Origin: a bacterium
Lineage (GTDB): Bacteria > Vulcanimicrobiota > Vulcanimicrobiia > Vulcanimicrobiales > Vulcanimicrobiaceae
Direction of reading: 5' to 3'
Assembly: GCA_021807065.1 (NCBI GenBank)
Contig: JAKAPO010000002.1
Coordinates: 1-32,026, forward strand
Length of the DNA stretch: 32,026 nucleotides
Of this stretch, positions 18,099-32,015 are shown in pieces; the first letter of the stretch is position 1; each line of letters opens with the position of its first letter. Under the pieces are notes generated by a model that was not told the origin of the DNA, did no database searches, and saw nothing but the letters and a program-made list of their open reading frames with translations. The translations under genes were made by a program, and so were the position numbers.

Positions 18099-19274
18099 CT
18101 ACGCACGCGTAGCCCCTTGGTGCTTCACGTTTCGCTGGCGGTTGCCGCGACGAACCGTAGTCCGTTTTGGTCTTACGCCGCCTCCACGCGCAGTCACGGT
18201 CTGCCCGACCGCCAGAATGTTCTTCGCCGCGTTCTCGTCGCGGTCGTGATGCGTTCCGCACGATTGGCAGTCCCAAGCGCGAACGCTCATCGCCATGTCC
18301 TGCTTGATATATCCGCATGTCGAACAGGTCTTGCTCGACGGGTAAAAGCGATCGATAGCCACGACCTCTTTACCGTACCGCTTCGCCTTGTATTCGAGCA
18401 TCGTTCGGAACGAAGCCAAGCCTGCGTCAGAGATCGAACGCGCGAGACTTCGCAGTTTGCTCATGCCTCGAACGTGCAAGTCCTCGATGGCGATAAAATC
18501 GAATCGGCGCACGAGATCAAGCGTTGTTTTATGCAACGCATCCGCGCGAGTATCGGAAATCTTCTCGTACAATCTGGCAACTTTGAGCCGCGCTCGGTTC
18601 CAACGCCCGGAGCCTTTCTTACGACGAGAGAGTGTACGCTGGAGATGCGCGAGTTCTCCAAGCCGTCCTCCGAGATGGCGCGGATTAGAGATACGCTCTC
18701 CGTTCGAGAGTGTTGCCAGTCGGCTCAGCCCGAGATCGGCCCCGATAGCCTCTCCCGTTTTCGCCAGATGCTTCGGCTCGGGTTCGTCAAGGATGATCGT
18801 CACGTGATAGCGGCCCGAAGGGGACTTGGTTATCGTCACCGTCGTGGGGTCGCTTTGGAAATCACGCGACCATCGAACCTTGATGGAACCGACCTTTGCG
18901 AGCGTGAGTGTTTTCGTCGCTCGGTCATACTTGAAAGCAGAGCGCGTGTATTCGGCGCTCTGCTTCCGAGACTTCTTCTTGAAACTCGGGTAGCCAGAAC
19001 GCTTCTCAAAGAAGTTTACGAAAGCCGTTTGCAAGTGCCGCAAAGCCTGCTGGGGTGGAACGCACGAGGTTTCGCTCGCCCACGGCAAAAGGTTGCGCTG
19101 CTTCGTCCATTCGGCGCTCGTAAGGAGATCGTTCATGCGAACTCCGTTACGGAAAGAATCGCTTCGTAAGCGGAGCGCCCAGTTATAGGCATACCGGGCC
19201 ACACCGAACTCGCAAGCAAGATGTTGCGCCTGTTCAGGCGTTGGGTAGATTCGGAAACGATACCGTACTTTCAC
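18099..19274 (-). CDS. tnpB: TnpB RNA-guided nuclease
   Basis: The product is 391 residues, a full-length TnpB (ancestor-type of Cas12). The RuvC residues are all present: D180 in GADLGLSRL, E264 in IAIEDL, and the DRDENAAKNI motif at 344-353. The zinc finger is intact: C317-x2-C320 and C336-x2-C339. The C-terminal tail is very basic. GTG 19274 is used; nearby ATGs are out of frame. TnpB cuts empty donor sites next to its target motif and so preserves the element. The 3' end of the gene and the element right end would encode the guide RNA, with the guide lying in the promoter sequence beyond 18058. Confidence 0.9.
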   Translation of the reverse strand: MKVRYRFRIYPTPEQAQHLACEFGVARYAYNWALRLRSDSFRNGVRMNDLLTSAEWTKQRNLLPWASETSCVPPQQALRHLQTAFVNFFEKRSGYPSFKKKSRKQSAEYTRSAFKYDRATKTLTLAKVGSIKVRWSRDFQSDPTTVTITKSPSGRYHVTIILDEPEPKHLAKTGEAIGADLGLSRLATLSNGERISNPRHLGGRLGELAHLQRTLSRRKKGSGRWNRARLKVARLYEKISDTRADALHKTTLDLVRRFDFIAIEDLHVRGMSKLRSLARSISDAGLASFRTMLEYKAKRYGKEVVAIDRFYPSSKTCSTCGYIKQDMAMSVRAWDCQSCGTHHDRDENAAKNILAVGQTVTARGGGVRPKRTTVRRGNRQRNVKHQGATRA

Positions 19275-22903: not shown

Positions 22904-24273
22904 TTGACCCCACTTCATACGACAAGTTCCTGCACGCAAAAGAACGCCGAGCGCATCGTTACGGGATAGAGGTTCCAGCCGCTTCCATTCACCCGTACCT
23001 GTTCCCGTTTCAGCGTGCAATCGTATCGTGGGCGCTAGGTCTTGGTCGCGCCGCGATCTTCGCGAATACGGGGCTCGGTAAAACCCTGATGCAACTCGAA
23101 TGGCTCCGGCACATCGGGAAGCGCACGATCATATTGGCGCCACTCGCTGTATCGACGCAAACGGCGCGCGAGGCGTTGAAAATAGCCCTGGAAGCGAGAG
23201 TATGCCGGGACGATTCGGACGTGAGAGACGGGGTAAACATTACGAACTATGAGCGCATAGAGAAGTTCGACCTTTCGCGGTTCGATGCGGTGGTGCTGGA
23301 CGAATCAAGCATACTCAAAAGTTTTTCCGGGAAGATGCGTGCGCTCCTCACCGAACAATGTGAGGGCATACAATATCGCCTGGCCTGCACCGCTACCCCG
23401 AGCCCGAACGATACGATGGAACTCGGGAATCATGCGGAGTTCCTCGGAGTAATGCGCGCTGCGGAGATGCTCGCAACGTATTTCACGCACGATGGAGGAG
23501 AAACGCAGAAGTGGCGATTGAAGGGGCACGCTCAAAAAGAGTTTTGGCGCTGGGTCGCATCGTGGGCCGCGATGGCACAACACCCGAGCGATCTCGGATT
23601 CGACGATGCAGGATACGATCTCCCGGAACTGCGGATGCATGAGCACATCGTCACGGCGGAAGCGGCGGACGACCAGGAATCCCTTTTCGCGCTTCCTGCA
23701 TTGGGCTTACTTGAAACGCGCCGCGCACGGAAGCAGAGCATTAACGAGCGCGTACTTACAGCCGCGCAACTCGTTCGAGAAGAACCTGGGACGTGGCTCA
23801 TTTGGTGCGAGTTGAACGCCGAAGCAGATGCGCTACAAAACGCGCTCCCCGACGCGCTAGAGATACGGGGTTCCGATTCCTCCGACGACAAGGAGCGCGG
23901 TATGCTTGCGTTCGCAGATGGAATCGAGCCCGTGCTTATTTCCAAAGCCTCGATTTGCGGGTTTGGAATGAACTTCCAGCGCTGCCATAAGATGATCTTC
24001 GTGGGGGTTTCCTATTCATGGGAATCGCTCTACCAGGCGATTCGTCGGTGCTATCGGTTCGGGCAAACGCAGGCCGTCGACGTGCATCTCATCCTTTCAG
24101 AGCCGGAGCAGCCGGTGCTCGAAAGCCTCAAACGCAAAGAACGTGACGCGCGCGCCATGCAGACGGCGATGGTGGCGGCAGCGATGGAGGGCTTTGCCGC
24201 ACGACGGCTACGGATGCCATATAAGCAGGTGCAGGTGGAAACACCATCATGGCTTCGGCCAGAGGGAGATTAA
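22900..24273 (+). CDS. SNF2-type DEAD-like helicase/translocase
   Basis: The product is 457 residues from GTG 22900, overlapping the preceding stop. Superfamily 2 motifs in order: Q-like FPFQRAIVSWAL, Walker A ANTGLGKT (residues 56-62), DESS at 134-137 in place of DEAH, TATPSPND near 165-171, and GFGMNFQRCHKMIF plus YQAIRRCYRFGQ at the C-terminus, the motif V/VI pattern of SNF2 enzymes. It likely moves along or remodels duplex DNA. Direct linkage to a DNA methyltransferase gene suggests a role in DNA modification or replication-fork handling. Confidence 0.88.
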   Translation: MIDPTSYDKFLHAKERRAHRYGIEVPAASIHPYLFPFQRAIVSWALGLGRAAIFANTGLGKTLMQLEWLRHIGKRTIILAPLAVSTQTAREALKIALEARVCRDDSDVRDGVNITNYERIEKFDLSRFDAVVLDESSILKSFSGKMRALLTEQCEGIQYRLACTATPSPNDTMELGNHAEFLGVMRAAEMLATYFTHDGGETQKWRLKGHAQKEFWRWVASWAAMAQHPSDLGFDDAGYDLPELRMHEHIVTAEAADDQESLFALPALGLLETRRARKQSINERVLTAAQLVREEPGTWLIWCELNAEADALQNALPDALEIRGSDSSDDKERGMLAFADGIEPVLISKASICGFGMNFQRCHKMIFVGVSYSWESLYQAIRRCYRFGQTQAVDVHLILSEPEQPVLESLKRKERDARAMQTAMVAAAMEGFAARRLRMPYKQVQVETPSWLRPEGD

Positions 24274-24274
24274 C

Positions 24275-25165
24275 GTGAGCGACGGCAACAGCGTAATCAC
24301 AGACGAGTACGCCGCGTACAATGGAGACTGCGTGGAAGTCCTGCGCGGTATCCCCGACAACAGCATCGGGTACTCGGTTTTCTCCCCTCCGTTTTCCTCG
24401 CTTTACACATATTCTGATAGCGATCGCGATATGAATAACTGCCGCGACAAGAGCGAGTTCTTCGGCCACTTCGCGTTTCTCATAACGGAGCTGTATCGCG
24501 TTATGAGGCCGGGCCGTGACCTGAGTTTCCATTGCATGAATCTGCCAACGAGCAAGGTGCGCCATGGATATATCGGCATAGACGATTTCCGCGGCGATTT
24601 AATTCGAGCGTTCCAGGATGGCGGCTTCATCTATCATTCCGAGGTGTGCATTTGGAAGGACCCGGTAACGGCAATGCAGCGGACAAAGGCCATCGGGTTG
24701 CTTTACAAGCAGCTGAAGAAAGATTCGTGCCTCTCGCGGCAAGGCATCCCGGATTACTTGGTGACGGTTCGTAAGCCTGGCGAGAACCTGGACCGCGTAA
24801 CAAAGGACCCGGAGGAGTTCCGCGTTGATCTTTGGCAGCGGTACGCATCTCCGATCTGGATGGATATTAACCCGAGCGATACCTTGCAGCGAGAAAGCGC
24901 GAGAGAGTTCGCGGACGAGCGCCATATTGCGCCGCTGCAGCTCGAGGTGATTCGGCGCGCGGTCATGCTTTGGTCGAACCCTGGCGACGTTGTTCTCTCT
25001 CCGTTTATGGGCATCGGCAGTGAGGGATATGAGGCGCTGAAGATGCGGCGGCGCTTCATCGGCATCGAACTCAAGGGTTCCTACTTCACTAGCGCCGTGC
25101 AAAATCTGCAAGCCGCGATTATCGAACGCGATGCGCCGACGCTTTTCGACGAGAAGCCCGCATGA
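24275..25165 (+). CDS. DNA (cytosine-N4/adenine-N6) methyltransferase
   Basis: The product is 296 residues; GTG 24275 follows GAGGGAG by 6 bases. Catalytic motif IV is SPPF at 37-40, typical of N4-cytosine and beta-class enzymes, placed near the N-terminus as in beta-class order. The AdoMet-binding FxGxG motif is LSPFMGIGS near residue 250, followed by RRFIGIELKGSYF. It would methylate phage DNA, perhaps to escape restriction. It is encoded after the SNF2 helicase and overlaps the HNH gene (ATGA). No own restriction partner is obvious beyond the HNH protein. Confidence 0.88.
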   Translation: MSDGNSVITDEYAAYNGDCVEVLRGIPDNSIGYSVFSPPFSSLYTYSDSDRDMNNCRDKSEFFGHFAFLITELYRVMRPGRDLSFHCMNLPTSKVRHGYIGIDDFRGDLIRAFQDGGFIYHSEVCIWKDPVTAMQRTKAIGLLYKQLKKDSCLSRQGIPDYLVTVRKPGENLDRVTKDPEEFRVDLWQRYASPIWMDINPSDTLQRESAREFADERHIAPLQLEVIRRAVMLWSNPGDVVLSPFMGIGSEGYEALKMRRRFIGIELKGSYFTSAVQNLQAAIIERDAPTLFDEKPA

Positions 25166-25713: not shown

Positions 25714-26649
25714 GTGAGTTGGGTTGGAGGTCTTGCAGAGTGGCAAGACGGCGATACGCTATACCTTTCTGTCGCGTTCACATGGAAGCTCGACGAAGCG
25801 TGGTCCCGCGCCATCTTTGCTAGGGCGCAGGGCCTTCGTGTTCGGGCCGGCGGCCCTGCGCTATTCTTGGCGCAGATGCAGCACAAACTGGCGGACGTTG
25901 CGGACGTTGGACCAGACTGGCACGATGCGACCGCAAGGCATAATCCGCTCGCGACGATGGCAAGCAGGGGGTGCCCGGTGGGATGCTGGTTCTGTATCGT
26001 GCCGAAGATGGAGGGCAAAGATTTTACGCTAATCCCGGATTTTCCGGTGCGCCCGATTCTCTGCGACAATAACCTTTCGGCGCTGCCTGCTGACTATCAG
26101 GAGTGGATCATCGCTCGGTACAGGGCCGAAGGTGTTCATCTGATCGACGCAAACTCGGGGTTCGAGCCGCGCACTTTCACGAAGGATGTTTACGACCGAT
26201 GGAAGTCGCTGATAAACGAAGGCGGAGGGCCCTGGCGCTTCGCCTACGACGATATGCGAGAGCGCGCCGAGGTTCATGCCGTATTCGATCTGCTGCGCGA
26301 CGAGCCAGCGAGGCGCAAGCGCGTCTATACCCTCGTCGGCAACGAACCATTTGAAGAGTGTATGCAGCGTATTCTAGAGGTACTAGATGCTGGATGCGAG
26401 CCGCACGTTCAGCCAGTCATTGCACTAAACTCACTCGACCGAAAGCCACTTGTCCGCCACGATTGGACGGAGCAGAAGCTCTACGATGTAGCGCGGTGGG
26501 TCAACGGGTTCGTGTTTCGCCTTTGCTCGTTTGAAGAATACGATCGTACTCGATCGAAACGCAAGATGACCGAGGTCTACGACGAGCAACAGGGGCTATT
26601 CATGGCCCGAGAAGGCAAGCCGTTGACGGAGAAGGGGAAGATGCCATGA
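25714..26649 (+). CDS. Phage radical SAM protein
   Basis: The product is 311 residues. The radical SAM cluster motif C87-x3-C91-x2-C94 (GCPVGCWFC) binds a 4Fe-4S cluster and AdoMet. It is preceded by a short N-terminal domain (WVGGLAEWQDGDTLYLSV) and followed by strand-helix repeats (HLIDANSGFEPRTF, YTLVGNEPFEECMQRIL, VQPVIALNSLDRKPL) of a partial TIM barrel. The substrate is unknown. Between two DNA methyltransferase genes, base modification is a reasonable guess. GTG 25714 has no ribosome site of its own; it follows TGA of an in-frame leader ORF. The gene end overlaps the next gene (ATGA). Confidence 0.75.
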   Translation: MSWVGGLAEWQDGDTLYLSVAFTWKLDEAWSRAIFARAQGLRVRAGGPALFLAQMQHKLADVADVGPDWHDATARHNPLATMASRGCPVGCWFCIVPKMEGKDFTLIPDFPVRPILCDNNLSALPADYQEWIIARYRAEGVHLIDANSGFEPRTFTKDVYDRWKSLINEGGGPWRFAYDDMRERAEVHAVFDLLRDEPARRKRVYTLVGNEPFEECMQRILEVLDAGCEPHVQPVIALNSLDRKPLVRHDWTEQKLYDVARWVNGFVFRLCSFEEYDRTRSKRKMTEVYDEQQGLFMAREGKPLTEKGKMP

Positions 26650-26912
26650 CCGAGCGGACACCGGCTGAGATTGCCTCGCCCGGATACGCCTGCACGATCG
26701 CCTACGTCGGGGCAGAGATTGCCGCTGGGCGGCTGCGAATCGCCCGGATAGGGGTGCGCTCGGGGATCGTGTTCGAGGCCGTGCTCACGCCCAAGGAACG
26801 CTGCGCTGAGGTGGGGAGCGCGGTCGCGGCCGTCGTCCTCATGGTGACGATCTTCGTCCTGCCGTTCGCGGTCCTCGGGGTGCTGATCGCGCTTGGTCGG
26901 GGGCTCCTGTGA
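26646..26912 (+). CDS. Small membrane protein (88 aa)
   Basis: ATG 26646 and the stop overlap both neighbours. Residues 1-55 are a soluble strand-rich part; about 59-84 (VAAVVLMVTIFVLPFAVLGVL) form one strong membrane helix. No family recognised. Confidence 0.6.
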   Translation: MTERTPAEIASPGYACTIAYVGAEIAAGRLRIARIGVRSGIVFEAVLTPKERCAEVGSAVAAVVLMVTIFVLPFAVLGVLIALGRGLL

Positions 26913-27160
26913 CGCTGCGGGTCGTAAGCCTCTTTTGCGGACTCGGAGGATTCGACCTCGGCCTGTACGCCGCCGCCGACGCGCTGGGCATCGAGGTCGA
27001 GGTCGTGGACGCGATAGACTCGTGGCCCGTCGCCGTCGAGGTCTATAACCGAAACCAGCGCCACGCCGTCGCCCGCGTTGCCGACGTGAAGAAGATGACG
27101 CGCGCCGATCTCGCGCCGCACGACCTCATCATCGGTGGCCCTCCGTGCGTGGGGGCATAG
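26909..27160 (+). CDS. C5-cytosine DNA methyltransferase, N-terminal part (frameshifted)
   Basis: The frame gives 83 residues. VVSLFCGLGGFDLG is motif I (AdoMet binding), the acidic residue in VVDAIDSW lies in motif II, and IIGGPPC with C80 is motif IV, which holds the catalytic cysteine. After PPC the frame hits TAG within four codons, whereas the homologous continuation GHSMAGKRLG is in the +1 frame. An extra G in the run 27151-27155 explains it. GTG 26909 overlaps the preceding stop (GTGA). Confidence 0.75.
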   Translation: MTLRVVSLFCGLGGFDLGLYAAADALGIEVEVVDAIDSWPVAVEVYNRNQRHAVARVADVKKMTRADLAPHDLIIGGPPCVGA

Positions 27161-28184
27161 CATGGCCGGGAAGAGGCTCGGGCGCGACGACCCGCGCGAC
27201 TGTTTGGAGGATTTCGAGCGCCTCGTTGGTATCGGCACCGGCGACGAATCGCCATACATCATGGAGAACGTCGCCTCGCGCCTGATTAACGCGCCGTGGT
27301 CCGAACGATTCTGCGCGGCCGATTTCGGGGACGTGACGAGCCGTCGGCGGTGGTTCTACTCGCAGTACCTCTTGCACGTCGTTCCGACACCGGGGCCGAG
27401 GCGCATCCGCGACATTCGGGACCACGACGAAGACGAGCGCGTTCTGCGGAAACGCGGCTTCTGGACGGGCGACGAGATGCAAGCCGTTGCAGAGGACGAC
27501 GCCGTCCTTCCGTCGCTTTGCTCTGGCGACTTTCACGGGACGAAGAACAACGGCAGTGGCAACCCCACGAAAGGTTCGAAGATTCGCTGCAAAGCGGGCC
27601 AGCACCGGCACTACGACGATACGCTCGATACGCTCCAGGCCCATTCATGGCATGGGCACGATATTCGGGGAAGCGGGAAACTCATCGGGATAGCGGACGA
27701 CGGCGTATTTGGCTCGCTGACGGCAGACGCACCGCGAGCGTTTAGCGGGGAACGCGTTGCGATTGTCGTCCGAAATGGCGATCGCGCTCCGAACGATTCT
27801 CGGGTATTGAGCGAGGATGACTTCATGCCGACCACGACGGCCAAGCCGGGAAACTGCAACCTTAATGCCGCTGCGCTCAAGCTCGGGCTACGCGGCAACT
27901 CGGCCTCGGCCTCGGCCTCGGCCTTCGATGATGATGAAGTCCTCGGCTCCATCCTGTCAAACTCTTTTCACGGCAACGAGGCGTCGAAACTCGTCGGGTG
28001 CCGGAACCCTTCGATCTTGGAAATGGCGCGATCCCATAGCATCCCGGACTCGTTCGACTGGGCCGGCGCGACCAAGACCGACCGTGGCAAACTCATCGCG
28101 AACAGCGTCCCCGCAGGTATGGCGCAGGCCGTGTGCCTCTCCATGCTGCGGATGCTCAGAAACGCGAAAAGCCCCCGGCCGTGA
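27135..28184 (+). CDS. C5-cytosine DNA methyltransferase, C-terminal part (frameshifted)
   Basis: True homology begins near 27154 with GHSMAGKRLGRDDPRD, followed by motif VI YIMENV, motif VIII SRRRWFYSQ and motif X-like KLIANSVPAGMAQAV at the end. Restoring one base gives a complete enzyme of about 425 residues for 5-methylcytosine formation. The target recognition region contains a Ser-Ala run encoded by four CTCGGC units (27899-27922). It ends at 28184 in a GC-rich stem-loop. It may protect phage DNA; if the frameshift is real the enzyme is inactive or made only by slippage. Confidence 0.75.
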   Translation: MALRAWGHSMAGKRLGRDDPRDCLEDFERLVGIGTGDESPYIMENVASRLINAPWSERFCAADFGDVTSRRRWFYSQYLLHVVPTPGPRRIRDIRDHDEDERVLRKRGFWTGDEMQAVAEDDAVLPSLCSGDFHGTKNNGSGNPTKGSKIRCKAGQHRHYDDTLDTLQAHSWHGHDIRGSGKLIGIADDGVFGSLTADAPRAFSGERVAIVVRNGDRAPNDSRVLSEDDFMPTTTAKPGNCNLNAAALKLGLRGNSASASASAFDDDEVLGSILSNSFHGNEASKLVGCRNPSILEMARSHSIPDSFDWAGATKTDRGKLIANSVPAGMAQAVCLSMLRMLRNAKSPRP

Positions 28185-28250: not shown

Positions 28251-29039
28251 ATGAGGCCGGACCTTAGAAAGAAGAAGGAAATGACACAGAAAAGAAGGCC
28301 CCGCATGACCCGCGCGGAAATCGCTGCCGTCCTTGCCGATCACGCGCTTTGGGTCGGGGATCAGGCCACAGGCGCGCGCGCCAACCTCTCGTGCGCCACC
28401 CTCTCGTGCGCCACCCTCTCGGACGCCGACCTCTCGCGCGCCGACCTTTCGGACGCCACCCTCTCGGGCGCCGACCTCTCGCGCGCCGACCTTTCGGGCG
28501 CCGACCTTTCGGACGCCACCCTCTCGCGCGCCGACCTCTCGCGCGCCAAACTCTCGGACGCCAACCTCTCGGACGCCAACCTCTCGGGCGCCGACCTTTC
28601 GGGCGCCGACCTTTCGGGCGCCGACCTTTCGGACGCCACCCTCTCGGGCGCCAACCTCTCGCGCGCCACCCTCTCGGGCGCCAACCTCTCGCGCGCCATC
28701 CTTCCCCCTTTCCAGATCGTCCCCGAAACCGGAGCGTTCCGAGCGTGGAAAAAACTCACCGACGGCATCGTAGCCGAGATCGAGATACCTGCCGACGCCT
28801 CGCGCGTATCGTCTACCGGGCGCAAATGTAGAGCCGAGCGCGCGCTCGTGCTCGGACTCTATCGCGACGGTGCGCCGGCCAACACGGACCGCGCACGCGG
28901 CATCCACGATCGTACCGTCGAGTATGTCGTCGGCAGCAGCGTGATTGCCAACGCATGGGACCCTGATATTCGGGAGGAGTGTACAGGCGGTATCCACTTT
29001 TTCCTTCGGCGCGCTGAAGCGGAGGCGTACTCATGCTAA
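28251..29039 (+). CDS. Pentapeptide-repeat protein with DUF5758-like C-terminus
   Basis: The product is 262 residues. Residues 42-151 contain about 22 pentapeptides of the A(D/N/T)LSx type, which fold into a right-handed square helix. The C-terminal domain ([49 protein letters not shown] split over 20 residues) resembles DUF5758, common in phage pentapeptide proteins. Some pentapeptide proteins mimic DNA and inhibit gyrase; that role here is speculation. The gene is leaderless and under a LexA-type box, so damage-induced expression is likely. The 15-base repeat units are unusually uniform in DNA sequence. Confidence 0.88.
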
Positions 29040-29092: not shown

Positions 29093-29244
29093 CCTGCACC
29101 GTCTGCGCCGCCCCGCTCAGCGAGAGGCAGGTGGTGATCGCTGAGTCCCGCGGCATGAAGGCGCTCTACTGCTCGACGCGGTGCCGCAAGAGGGCCGCAA
29201 ACCTCCGCGCCGTCGCGCGCAACCGCGCGACGGCGCAGCCATGA
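29089..29244 (+). CDS. Zinc-finger microprotein (51 aa)
   Basis: ATG 29089. C3-x2-C6 and C28-x3-C32 form a FCS/MYND-like treble-clef pattern (CTVCAAPL, YCSTRCRKRAAN), followed by an Arg/Ala-rich basic helix. Probably nucleic-acid binding. It overlaps the ASCH gene by 4 bases. Confidence 0.6.
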   Translation: MTCTVCAAPLSERQVVIAESRGMKALYCSTRCRKRAANLRAVARNRATAQP

Positions 29245-29630
29245 AGGCGCTGAGCATCCGCCCGGCCTGGGCGCACGCAATCGCGCACCTCGGGAAGCGC
29301 ATCGAAAATCGCACCTGGTCAACGCGCTATCGCGGCCCGATTCTCATCCACGCCTCGTCCTCGGTGGACGCCGGCGATCATCGGCTCCTCGAGGCGATCA
29401 TCGGCCGTTCCGTCGACCGGGAGAGTTTCGAGCGCGGCGCGATCGTCGCCGTTGCCGAGATCGCGGACTGCGTTGACGCCGCCGAGGCTCCAAGCCGCTG
29501 GACGTGCGGGCCTATCGCTTGGAGGCTGCGCAACGTGCGCGCTCTGCGCCGGCCCGTCGCGGCGAGCGGCCGGCTCGGACTCTGGACGCCGGATGCTTCG
29601 CTTCTGCGCCGCGTGAAGGCCGCGCTCTAG
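29241..29630 (+). CDS. ASCH-domain protein
   Basis: The product is 129 residues from ATG 29241. KALSIRPAWAHAIAHLGKRI, then ENRTWSTRYRGPILIHAS, is the ASCH/PUA-like signature, a fold that binds RNA or modified nucleic acid. WRLRNVRALRRPV and LGLWTP near the end complete the domain. Phage ASCH proteins may read or process modified bases or RNA. Its stop codon shares one CTAG tetramer with the convergent ABC-GNAT gene. Confidence 0.8.
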   Translation: MKALSIRPAWAHAIAHLGKRIENRTWSTRYRGPILIHASSSVDAGDHRLLEAIIGRSVDRESFERGAIVAVAEIADCVDAAEAPSRWTCGPIAWRLRNVRALRRPVAASGRLGLWTPDASLLRRVKAAL

Positions 29631-30688
29631 CGGACCCACTCCCAGGAGGTCGTGAGGCGCTGGCTCGCGCGTTTCGCGACCTTATCAGGTGACGTGCGGC
29701 TCGCCCTGCGCACCAATCTCCAGCGAGAGGACTTCTGGCGCGCGAGATTGAGCGGCAGCGATGCCGAAACCGAACTCAGTTTTCGTTGCGGGTCCTCTTC
29801 GGCCATGAGCGCGAAGCAGGCATCAACGAACTTCGAGCCAATCCCCGCGCCTTGGTATTCCGGCAAAATCACGGCGCGATGATCGCGCCAGCGCGCCGCG
29901 TAGCCCATGACGGGGAGGAACGATGCCCACCCGCACAAGGCCGAGTAGTCGCCGATGTGAATGGCGCCGACGAAGCAGCGGGCGCTAGATGAGAGATCGC
30001 CGCTCAAATAGTGATGCGCTGCAAACAAGGGCCAGAGACTACGCGCTGCAGGATGGATGCTGACGCTGAACGCTGGTCGCCGAAGACGCCCCCTTGCCAG
30101 CGTGGCAGTTGCCGTGTCAAACACCCAATCGGCTTCGAGCCATTCCGCCACGTCGTAATGACAGGTCGCGACGACGAGGCGTTTCTTCATTCGGCGAACC
30201 GCCTTTGCTGTCGCCATTGCGGTTGTTCGCGCAACAACGCGGTCAAGCAACGACGTAAACTCATCGAAGACGATGCGATCGGTTTCGAGAATCGCCCGCG
30301 TCATCGCCGCGCGCTGCTGCTGCCCATTTGATAGCCGAAAGTATGGCAGCATCCAGGCCGGCACGGACGACAGACCAGTCCCAGCGAGCGCCCGAGAGAC
30401 TTCTTCGACGGAGGCAGATCCCGCCAAATCATCGAGAAACGATGTCCCTCCCCATTCATATTTTGAGGCATCCGTCCATCCCCCGAACGCCGCGCGCAAA
30501 AGCTGCGATTTTCCAGAGCCAGACGGTCCAACGATGAGGCCCACCGACCATTCTTCTGCCTCATCGGGAAGTTCTGCGTGCAGTTGGAAACGTGTGCGTC
30601 CACCTGGGTCATAATCCATTCGTGATGCAAGCGATTGCACACGGAACGTGTCGGAGATCGGGCTCTGGAGATCGAGATCGATTTTCAT
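29627..30688 (-). CDS. ABC-ATPase fused to a GNAT-like (Mom-type) domain
   Basis: The product is 353 residues. The ATPase part has Walker A GPSGSGKS (54-61), the ABC signature LSNGQQQR (119-126) and Walker B RIVFDEF (138-144). From about 205, LWPLFAAHHYLSGDLSSSAR, GWASFLPVMGY and VILPEYQGAGIGSKFVDA form a GNAT acyl-CoA-binding domain of the kind related to phage Mu Mom, which modifies adenine in DNA. There is no transporter membrane domain. The gene overlaps parB (ATGA). A role in DNA hypermodification guided by ParB is an inference from fold and context. Confidence 0.8.
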   Translation of the reverse strand: MKIDLDLQSPISDTFRVQSLASRMDYDPGGRTRFQLHAELPDEAEEWSVGLIVGPSGSGKSQLLRAAFGGWTDASKYEWGGTSFLDDLAGSASVEEVSRALAGTGLSSVPAWMLPYFRLSNGQQQRAAMTRAILETDRIVFDEFTSLLDRVVARTTAMATAKAVRRMKKRLVVATCHYDVAEWLEADWVFDTATATLARGRLRRPAFSVSIHPAARSLWPLFAAHHYLSGDLSSSARCFVGAIHIGDYSALCGWASFLPVMGYAARWRDHRAVILPEYQGAGIGSKFVDACFALMAEEDPQRKLSSVSASLPLNLARQKSSRWRLVRRASRTSPDKVAKRASQRLTTSWEWVR

Positions 30689-31281
30689 AGCTGCAATACT
30701 CGGACTTGTCGTCCTTCGGCTTTGAGCCGCTCGTAGAGTTCGCGCTGCTGATTCTCGTCGGCGACCGTCACCACGAGTTCAAAGCGCGTAGCATACGCGA
30801 GAGCGGCACTCTCATCGTCGACTGGCGGCAGCAGGGCATCGAGGCGGAGCTCGTGCATCATCTGCGAGTCTTGCTCCTGCAGTTCGAGGAGCATCGCATC
30901 GAGATCGTCCGTGAAGTCGCCGGCGATCTTCGGGTTATTCAGCGTCACGTTCAGCGCCCGCTCGTCCTTCTCGGCGAGATCTACCACAAGCACGTCGGCT
31001 TGCGTCTCGCCCGATTCCCGCAGCGCCAGCACCCGCTGATGGCCGCCGACGACGTGCCCGGTCCGGCTATTGTAGACGATCGGCTGCACGAGCCCGAATC
31101 GCTTGAGCGATGCCTTGAGGCCCTTGAGCGCCGCTGCCGAGATCTTCCGGGGATTGTAGGGCGCCGACTTGAGGTCCTCGATCGCCATGCGCACGAGCGG
31201 CTGCAGCGCGCCCTTCTGCGCCGATGCCGTAGCCGGTCGTTTCGCTTTTGGCGCCGGCGGGTTGGCTTTGCCCATCGCCAT
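30685..31281 (-). CDS. ParB/Srx-like nuclease-domain protein
   Basis: The product is 198 residues from ATG 31281 (one-base overlap TGATG with the preceding gene). DLKSAPYNPRKISAAALKGL, SLKRFGLVQPIVYNSRTG and HVVGGHQRVLAL are the ParB N-terminal CTP-binding/nuclease-like domain. The tail FELVVTVADENQQRELYERL is common in phage ParB proteins linked to DNA modification. No HTH centre-binding domain is evident, so chromosome partition is unlikely. Confidence 0.85.
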   Translation of the reverse strand: MAMGKANPPAPKAKRPATASAQKGALQPLVRMAIEDLKSAPYNPRKISAAALKGLKASLKRFGLVQPIVYNSRTGHVVGGHQRVLALRESGETQADVLVVDLAEKDERALNVTLNNPKIAGDFTDDLDAMLLELQEQDSQMMHELRLDALLPPVDDESAALAYATRFELVVTVADENQQRELYERLKAEGRQVRVLQL

Positions 31282-32015
31282 CAGAACTTCACGAGCGCGC
31301 TCGCGCCGACCTTCGCGCCGTGGTTCATCGTGACCGACGGACCGACGCACAGGCTCGTCCTTGGGAGGCAGTACGCCAGCGCCGCGACCGGTGCCAGGTG
31401 ACCGCCGATCTGCACCGCGCCAATGTCGAGTTCGTACTGCTTGTGCCGGAGGATGCCATACGACAAGCCGTCGCCGCCGCTGCCGATGATCGAGCCGACC
31501 CGCGACGTCGGCACCTCCTGCCGCGTGATATGCACGTCCGTCTTGATGGTGGTGTCTTTAAGCGCGTGGGTCGTCGCCGCATAATCGGCGTTGTAGACCT
31601 GCTGCATCAGTGCGCTCGTCGGGGTCGGCGCCGGGGTTGGGGCCGAGAGCGCGGAGTGAACGGCAATCGCTTCGACCGTGTGCGGCTTCAGGGCCCCGAG
31701 CAACCGCCCGATCTGCGCGTCCGAAAGGCCGTGCGCGATGCCTGAACTGCGTATGACGGCGATGGCCGGCTGCTGCAAGTACGGTGCGCGCGATGTCGTG
31801 CCCGCTGCGAGCAGCTGATCGGCCTGGATGAGCGCCTGCACGGTGTGTTCGAGCGGGTTGGGCGTGAACACGGCGACCGGGCCATGAACGGGTGACGGCG
31901 GGGGCGCGACCCGGTGCAAGAACCAGAAGCCGATTGCCGTGACTGAGGCGACGACGAGCAGCACGCGCAGCGTAACGTGCGCCTCGCGCCAGAAAACGTC
32001 GGATGCGAACTTCAT
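31281..32015 (-). CDS. Membrane-anchored protein of unknown function (244 aa)
   Basis: ATG 32015 has GAGGTG 5 bases upstream. One N-terminal membrane helix (residues about 15-33: TLRVLLVVASVTAIGFWFL) is followed by a Pro-rich linker and an outer domain with GSIIGSGGDGLSYGIL and a C-terminal part with two Cys. The topology suggests a secreted or inner-membrane-anchored protein. It is not recognised; it shares an operon with parB, and genes further upstream are outside the window. Confidence 0.6.
   Translation of the reverse strand: MKFASDVFWREAHVTLRVLLVVASVTAIGFWFLHRVAPPPSPVHGPVAVFTPNPLEHTVQALIQADQLLAAGTTSRAPYLQQPAIAVIRSSGIAHGLSDAQIGRLLGALKPHTVEAIAVHSALSAPTPAPTPTSALMQQVYNADYAATTHALKDTTIKTDVHITRQEVPTSRVGSIIGSGGDGLSYGILRHKQYELDIGAVQIGGHLAPVAALAYCLPRTSLCVGPSVTMNHGAKVGASALVKF

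Follow-up and report, generated by a model that had tools for sequence, protein, structure and literature searches.

A ParB-fold gene overlaps an ABC-GNAT gene on a phage contig

The window analysed here, 32,026 nucleotides in length, is a single contig (C46) from a 2.3-Mb draft genome of a bacterium of the Vulcanimicrobiaceae. It is temperate phage or prophage DNA, since it carries genes for a major head protein, portal, terminase large subunit, serine-recombinase integrase, RecE/RecT and DnaB. A gene for a transposase is also present (phrog_506, 5e-122; 18102-19274, minus strand). Elsewhere on the minus strand, a gene for a ParB-fold protein runs by an ATGA overlap into one for a protein in which an ABC ATPase is fused to a GNAT acyltransferase (Table 1). 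A sequence-only reading had picked out this pair, at 29627-31281, as a candidate DNA hypermodification unit; both open reading frames prove to be real, and the expected domains are matched in Pfam.

The ParB frame has a longer alternative that starts from a GTG and reaches 31350 (221 amino acids). We place the start at the ATG at 31281, which the end coordinate of the sequence-only reading implies. This choice is supported by the TGATG at which ParB meets the upstream ORF and by the ATGA junction to ABC-GNAT. Such junctions suggest translational coupling of neighbouring genes, and the upstream ORF and ParB are likely to belong to the same operon.

Table 1. Features of the ParB/ABC-GNAT locus, in window coordinates
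Feature	Position	Strand	Basis or conservation
ASCH-domain protein, convergent, 4-base overlap with the end of ABC-GNAT	29181..29630	+	Pfam ASCH 0.0027 (below cut-off); phrog_3193 6e-40
ABC-GNAT CDS, 353 aa, phrog_11143 family	29627..30688	-	Pfam, PHROG, alignment, AlphaFold2
GNAT acyltransferase domain, residues ~206-353	29630..30073	-	Pfam, domain model, PDB fold matches
GNAT motif A QGAGIG (279-284), CoA pyrophosphate loop	29837..29854	-	G280, G282, G284 invariant; Q279 nearly
HHYLS (225-229), putative acceptor-side motif, end of GNAT helix 1	30002..30016	-	H226, Y227 invariant
ABC ATPase domain, residues ~1-205	30074..30688	-	Pfam ABC_tran; Foldseek against ABC nucleotide-binding domains, E ~2e-7
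H-loop CHYDVAEW (176-183), most conserved block of the family	30140..30163	-	Invariant in 48 sequences
Walker B IVFDEF (139-144), catalytic Glu143	30257..30274	-	D142, E143 invariant
ABC signature LSNGQ (119-123)	30320..30334	-	L119, S120, G122 invariant
Walker A GPSGSGKS (54-61)	30506..30529	-	G54, S56, G57, G59, K60 invariant
ParB-fold CDS, 198 aa, ATG at 31281	30685..31281	-	Pfam ParB_N 4.4e-7; phrog_9353/620
ParB C-terminal tail, ends FELVVTVADENQQRELYERLKAEGRQVRVLQL	30688..30795	-	E, Q, G near-invariant; type found only with ABC-GNAT partners
Upstream ORF, TGATG junction with ParB	31281..32015	-	No significant match (Pfam, PHROG)

The ParB protein consists of the ParB_N nucleotide-binding domain and a short tail. 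Domain searches of the 221-aa frame matched neither a helix-turn-helix (HTH) nor a dimerisation domain, and lacking an HTH match the protein does not qualify as a canonical partition ParB. No ParA-like gene was seen adjoining it. The sequence-only reading proposed a ParB CTP switch; the ParB-CTPase fold as such is known to bind CTP, ATP or GTP, and a bacterial ParB-acetyltransferase fusion bound GTP (2025 survey, PMC12704722).

The closest relative of the window ABC-GNAT, with 79% identity, comes from a Candidatus Eremiobacterota MAG, where the ParB gene, the ABC-GNAT gene and a convergent ASCH gene are arranged in the identical order. The ASCH protein is a possible accessory of the unit. A role as a YqfB-like deacylase was considered. 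This identification was not adopted and stays a lead: not all loci have the ASCH gene adjoining, and its K-x-x-E-x-R pattern differs from that of YqfB.

Several other genes lie near the module on the plus strand. An N6/N4 DNA methylase (24143-25165) and a radical-SAM protein (phrog_9298; 25714-26649), the latter of a kind that could matter in unusual base chemistry, are encoded a few kb away. A C5-cytosine DNA methylase is split over two overlapping frames (26909-27160 and 27135-28184), with the frame change directly after the GGPPC catalytic motif; this may be a natural frameshift, decay or an assembly error. Finally, a pentapeptide-repeat protein with ADLSxADLS repeats is encoded at 28251-29039, and a similar-looking repeat stretch occurs between ParB and ABC-GNAT in a Nonomuraea locus.

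Both halves of ABC-GNAT keep their catalytic motifs

Pfam recognises both parts of the 353-aa protein (ABC_tran, 1.3e-6; Acetyltransf_7, 2.5e-4; Acetyltransf_1, 8e-4). A single PHROG family listed as of unknown function, phrog_11143, spans residues 7-333 (2.2e-80), and this full-length match across the ABC and GNAT parts places the protein in that family. It shares 29-41% identity with 47 relatives; across the resulting 48 sequences Acetyltransf_1 is matched in all and Acetyltransf_7 in 47. Residues G59, K60, S120, G122, D142, E143, H177, H226, Y227, G280, G282 and G284 are invariant in the 48-member alignment, and both the ATPase and the CoA-binding motifs are intact in the window protein. 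The sequence-only reading was thus right in finding a full set of ATPase motifs (Walker A, signature, Walker B and H-loop), and the HHYLS and QGAGIG segments are where it saw them in the GNAT part. AlphaFold2 modelled the whole protein with a mean pLDDT of 91, and a separate model of the GNAT domain (pLDDT 90) has GNAT topology.

The same reading had likened the ATPase to SMC proteins, and this does not hold. Walker A and the signature are separated by 51-72 residues, the long coiled coil that marks SMC/Rad50 between these motifs is absent, and the compact ABC part is therefore not SMC-like. Its remark that a transport partner is missing agrees with our survey, in which no permease occurs among the annotated neighbour families of ABC-GNAT loci. 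In several public records of Oenococcus, Lactococcus and Streptococcus phages the ABC half is labelled 'ABC iron siderophore transporter'; since there is no permease we reject this annotation, which is probably wrong.

Searched as a whole against PDB sequences, the protein matched only generic ABC cassettes, and a fold search of BFVD gave one clear whole-length match, a protein of Leptospira phage LE4 (TM 0.82). The best 50 PDB folds for the GNAT model were small-molecule and protein GNATs, among them the protein acetyltransferases RimI and NatC and an AtaT-type toxin, together with the tRNA cytidine acetyltransferase TmcA. GNAT folds tell little about substrate.

The GNAT domain had also been compared with Mom of phage Mu. 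Membership of the Mom family fails by Pfam, PHROG, hhalign and Foldseek. The Pfam model (PF25680) does not match the window GNAT and finds weak matches in only three of 48 relatives (best 0.0078); aligning the two families with hhalign yields a P of 0.01-0.05 with a probability below 5%; and the solved Mom structure, 8bv8, is absent from the best 50 PDB matches. The sequence-only reading had said that a GNAT fold closest to protein or small-molecule acetyltransferases, together with unmodified phage DNA, would speak against it, and the fold half of this is what the comparison returned. In addition, ABC-GNAT keeps the canonical QGxGxG motif A, which is not visible in the alignment of Mom. In 144 of 147 ABC-GNAT and 25 of 26 Mom sequences a histidine-tyrosine pair stands where helix 1 ends; the profile alignment offsets the two pairs by one residue, and we treat them as a lead only.

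The family is widespread and linked to ParB

Members of phrog_11143 are present in hundreds of phages and prophages. Searches returned 70 IMG/VR loci, 51 phage records and 326 places in GTDB genomes, of which 80 were retrieved, many from Planctomycetota. By an automatic rule, ParB is encoded upstream of ABC-GNAT in 124 of the 142 loci with room for it. Inspection revealed a ParB in 11 of the 18 exceptions, bringing those with ParB upstream or fused to about 135 of 142. The two genes mostly overlap or lie within 100 bases of each other, and in a Gemmataceae MAG ParB, ABC and GNAT form a single polypeptide of 611 amino acids. Some phages, Streptococcus phages among them, encode ABC and GNAT as two adjacent genes. 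Cultured phages that carry the unit include Arthrobacter phage EastWest and the Gordonia phages Jace and AnClar. Among annotated neighbours the small and large terminase subunits occur most often, the ParB/ABC-GNAT pair usually lying just upstream of them.

Base-modifying enzymes replace ABC-GNAT beside the ParB core

For searches of IMG/VR we removed the tails and used the ParB cores alone as queries, so that the searches were free of bias from the tail. With the core of one ABC-GNAT locus (L006) as reference, cores about 74-79% identical either precede Mom or form part of a fusion with an N6/N4 DNA methylase. One such core is followed by Mom (L213; Pfam 1.8e-50) and another belongs to a methylase fusion (L220), while a core 87% identical to the reference (L212) is followed by a TET-associated glycosyltransferase (TAGT). 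More distant cores precede a TET/JBP dioxygenase (L128 and L315).

The exchange can be seen in place in the Arthrobacter phages EastWest and LeeroyJ. Orthologues flank the site in both, with 62% identity for the gene before ParB, 83% for an AlpA-like protein and 46% for the sliding clamp; the ParB proteins themselves are 52% identical over 133 amino acids. Between ParB and AlpA, EastWest carries ABC-GNAT, and LeeroyJ has a small ORF and Mom there.

Most classified partners besides ABC-GNAT, some of them called by BLAST to typed examples, are enzymes that modify DNA bases. A PAPS-reductase-like protein, a His-phosphatase/nucleotidyltransferase and some unclassified genes stand apart from these. 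The phage ParB core might mark a general DNA-handling slot, not a modification slot alone. As to the individual loci, the ParB-fold protein is followed by a PAPS-reductase/DUF3440 protein, another type of partner, in L298, L297, L299 and L295, and by a fusion of a His-phosphatase to a cytidylyltransferase-like domain in L282, L267, L285 and L289. The latter may be a modification enzyme not yet described that occupies this slot too.

The ParB tail follows the partner

ParB proteins paired with ABC-GNAT carry a tail of about 36 amino acids with the pattern FEVxVxCxxExxQxxVYExLTxEGxxCRVLTL. It is present in 133/133 ParBs encoded directly before ABC-GNAT, in the fusion, where it lies between both parts, and in six more with ABC-GNAT at the locus. 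By a tail model trained on ABC-GNAT ParBs, and over loci that are not fully independent, the tail thus accompanies 140/140 ABC-GNAT pairings against 0/106 others (0/14 Mom-paired ParBs and 0/92 other ParBs). Thirteen of the 14 Mom-paired ParBs end instead in CPxC; Mom-family genes adjoin such a ParB in Microbacterium phage Appa and in Arthrobacter phage LeeroyJ.

Contrasts on a tree correct for common descent. On a quick tree of ParB cores, built from about 110 columns with the tail excluded, at least 30 changes of partner class are counted; scored simply as ABC-GNAT or not, the partner changes 16 times. In eight of eight independent supported contrasts the tail follows the partner (p = 0.008).

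A model for the ParB/ABC-GNAT pair, and its rivals

Elsewhere the slot of ABC-GNAT is filled by proven base-modifying enzymes, and we therefore propose that the protein places an acyl mark on phage DNA. The pair is, in our judgement, probably a two-component unit for DNA base modification in which ABC-GNAT acylates bases. ParB would serve as a DNA-bound adaptor, probably regulated by NTP, and its C-terminal tail would dock ABC-GNAT and so select the enzyme. The ABC halves would dimerise around ATP, and their ATPase cycle may engage DNA or open a base, allowing the GNAT domain to move an acyl group from acyl-CoA to the exocyclic amine of that base. Acylation would take place shortly before packaging and might hide the DNA from host nucleases. 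Of the earlier proposal, candidacy for DNA modification stands, now on partner substitution and the association of tail with partner; assignment to the Mom family, which finds no support in Pfam, hhalign or fold, does not.

Could the GNAT instead acylate a protein on DNA (host RNA polymerase, a nucleoid protein, terminase or ParB itself), with ABC and ParB only positioning it? The presence of RimI, NatC and other protein acetyltransferases among the best PDB folds fits this idea, and phage GNATs that acetylate host RNA polymerase provide a precedent (PMC7824862). However, it leaves unexplained why the same ParB core alternates with Mom, DNA methylase, TET/JBP and TAGT, whose known substrate is a DNA base, and we regard it as unlikely. 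More improbable still is that ABC-GNAT is a diverged Mom with the same product, N6-carbamoylmethyl-adenine. The swap in place with Mom and the HY pair seen after helix 1 in each family would suit such a relationship. Against it stand the want of a family-level match, the difference in motif A and the fact that Mom works without an ABC ATPase; moreover, Aeromonas phage AsFcp_1 encodes both families, which argues against redundancy.

The frequent position immediately upstream of the terminase genes raises the question of whether ParB and the ABC ATPase organise DNA for terminase, the GNAT being regulatory. ABC ATPases are able to load on DNA, which would suit a partition or packaging accessory. 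Nevertheless, no ParA-like gene was seen beside the window ParB, which has no HTH match, invariance at the CoA site of the GNAT equals that of the ATPase residues, and the slot is one common to base-modifying enzymes; we give this explanation very little weight. Least credible of all is a role as a toxin or in a nutrient-type ABC system, the label that some records give. The transporter label in phages of lactic-acid bacteria and the AtaT-type toxin among the fold matches point that way, but there is neither a permease nor an antitoxin-like partner, and the linkage to ParB is near-universal.

Base acylation by the ParB/ABC-GNAT pair thus remains our preferred reading. A broader version of it, which we offer tentatively and rate a little below even, is that phages possess a universal modification slot, built on a ParB-fold adaptor with exchangeable, partner-specific docking tails. 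On the same tentative footing, this slot would accept methylases, Mom, TET/JBP enzymes, glycosyltransferases or ABC-GNAT, the last using ATP to install an acyl mark new to DNA. N4-acetyl-deoxycytidine would be an example, by analogy with TmcA. The association of tail and partner makes the role of ParB-fold proteins beside modifying enzymes simply testable by tail exchange.

Comparison with known systems

Mom (phage Mu; PF25680; 8bv8) resembles ABC-GNAT in being GNAT-type, in lying next to a ParB of the same kind in several phages and in exchanging with ABC-GNAT in one slot; its conserved HY after helix 1 is a more tentative similarity. It differs in having no ABC domain, in motif A and in the CPxC ending of its ParB partners. 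TmcA and NAT10, which make N4-acetylcytidine in tRNA or rRNA, likewise join an ATPase to a GNAT whose target is a base in nucleic acid. TmcA (2zpa) is one of the top 50 folds; at motif A, where resemblance is common to GNATs, NAT10 ranks with the best profile matches. Their ATPase, however, is helicase-type, not ABC, and their substrate is RNA.

ParB is coupled to base-modifying enzymes in other systems too. Phage ParB fusions often carry DNA methylases (PMC12704722), and ParB-fold proteins adjoin the CmoX/CmoY cytosine hypermodification genes (PMC12704722, PMC12783734); the function of the ParBc proteins beside the carboxymethylcytosine genes is stated as unknown (PMC12783734). These systems have another catalytic partner and no ABC ATPase.

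The nearest parallel is the set of GNAT-ABC systems predicted by Iyer, Zhang, Burroughs and Aravind in 2013, in which a GNAT is coupled to an ABC ATPase in phage. As restated in PMC7824862, which cites that work, these proteins are predicted to make an uncharacterised acyl modification of DNA bases, Tenacibaculum phage pT24 being an example. The core idea of acyl base modification by GNAT-ABC is therefore already published; the partner-swap slot and the tail-partner association were not found in the literature searched, nor was any experiment on the family. With the loci described here, the 2013 prediction gains cultured phages in which it can be pursued, together with a natural Mom-bearing control.
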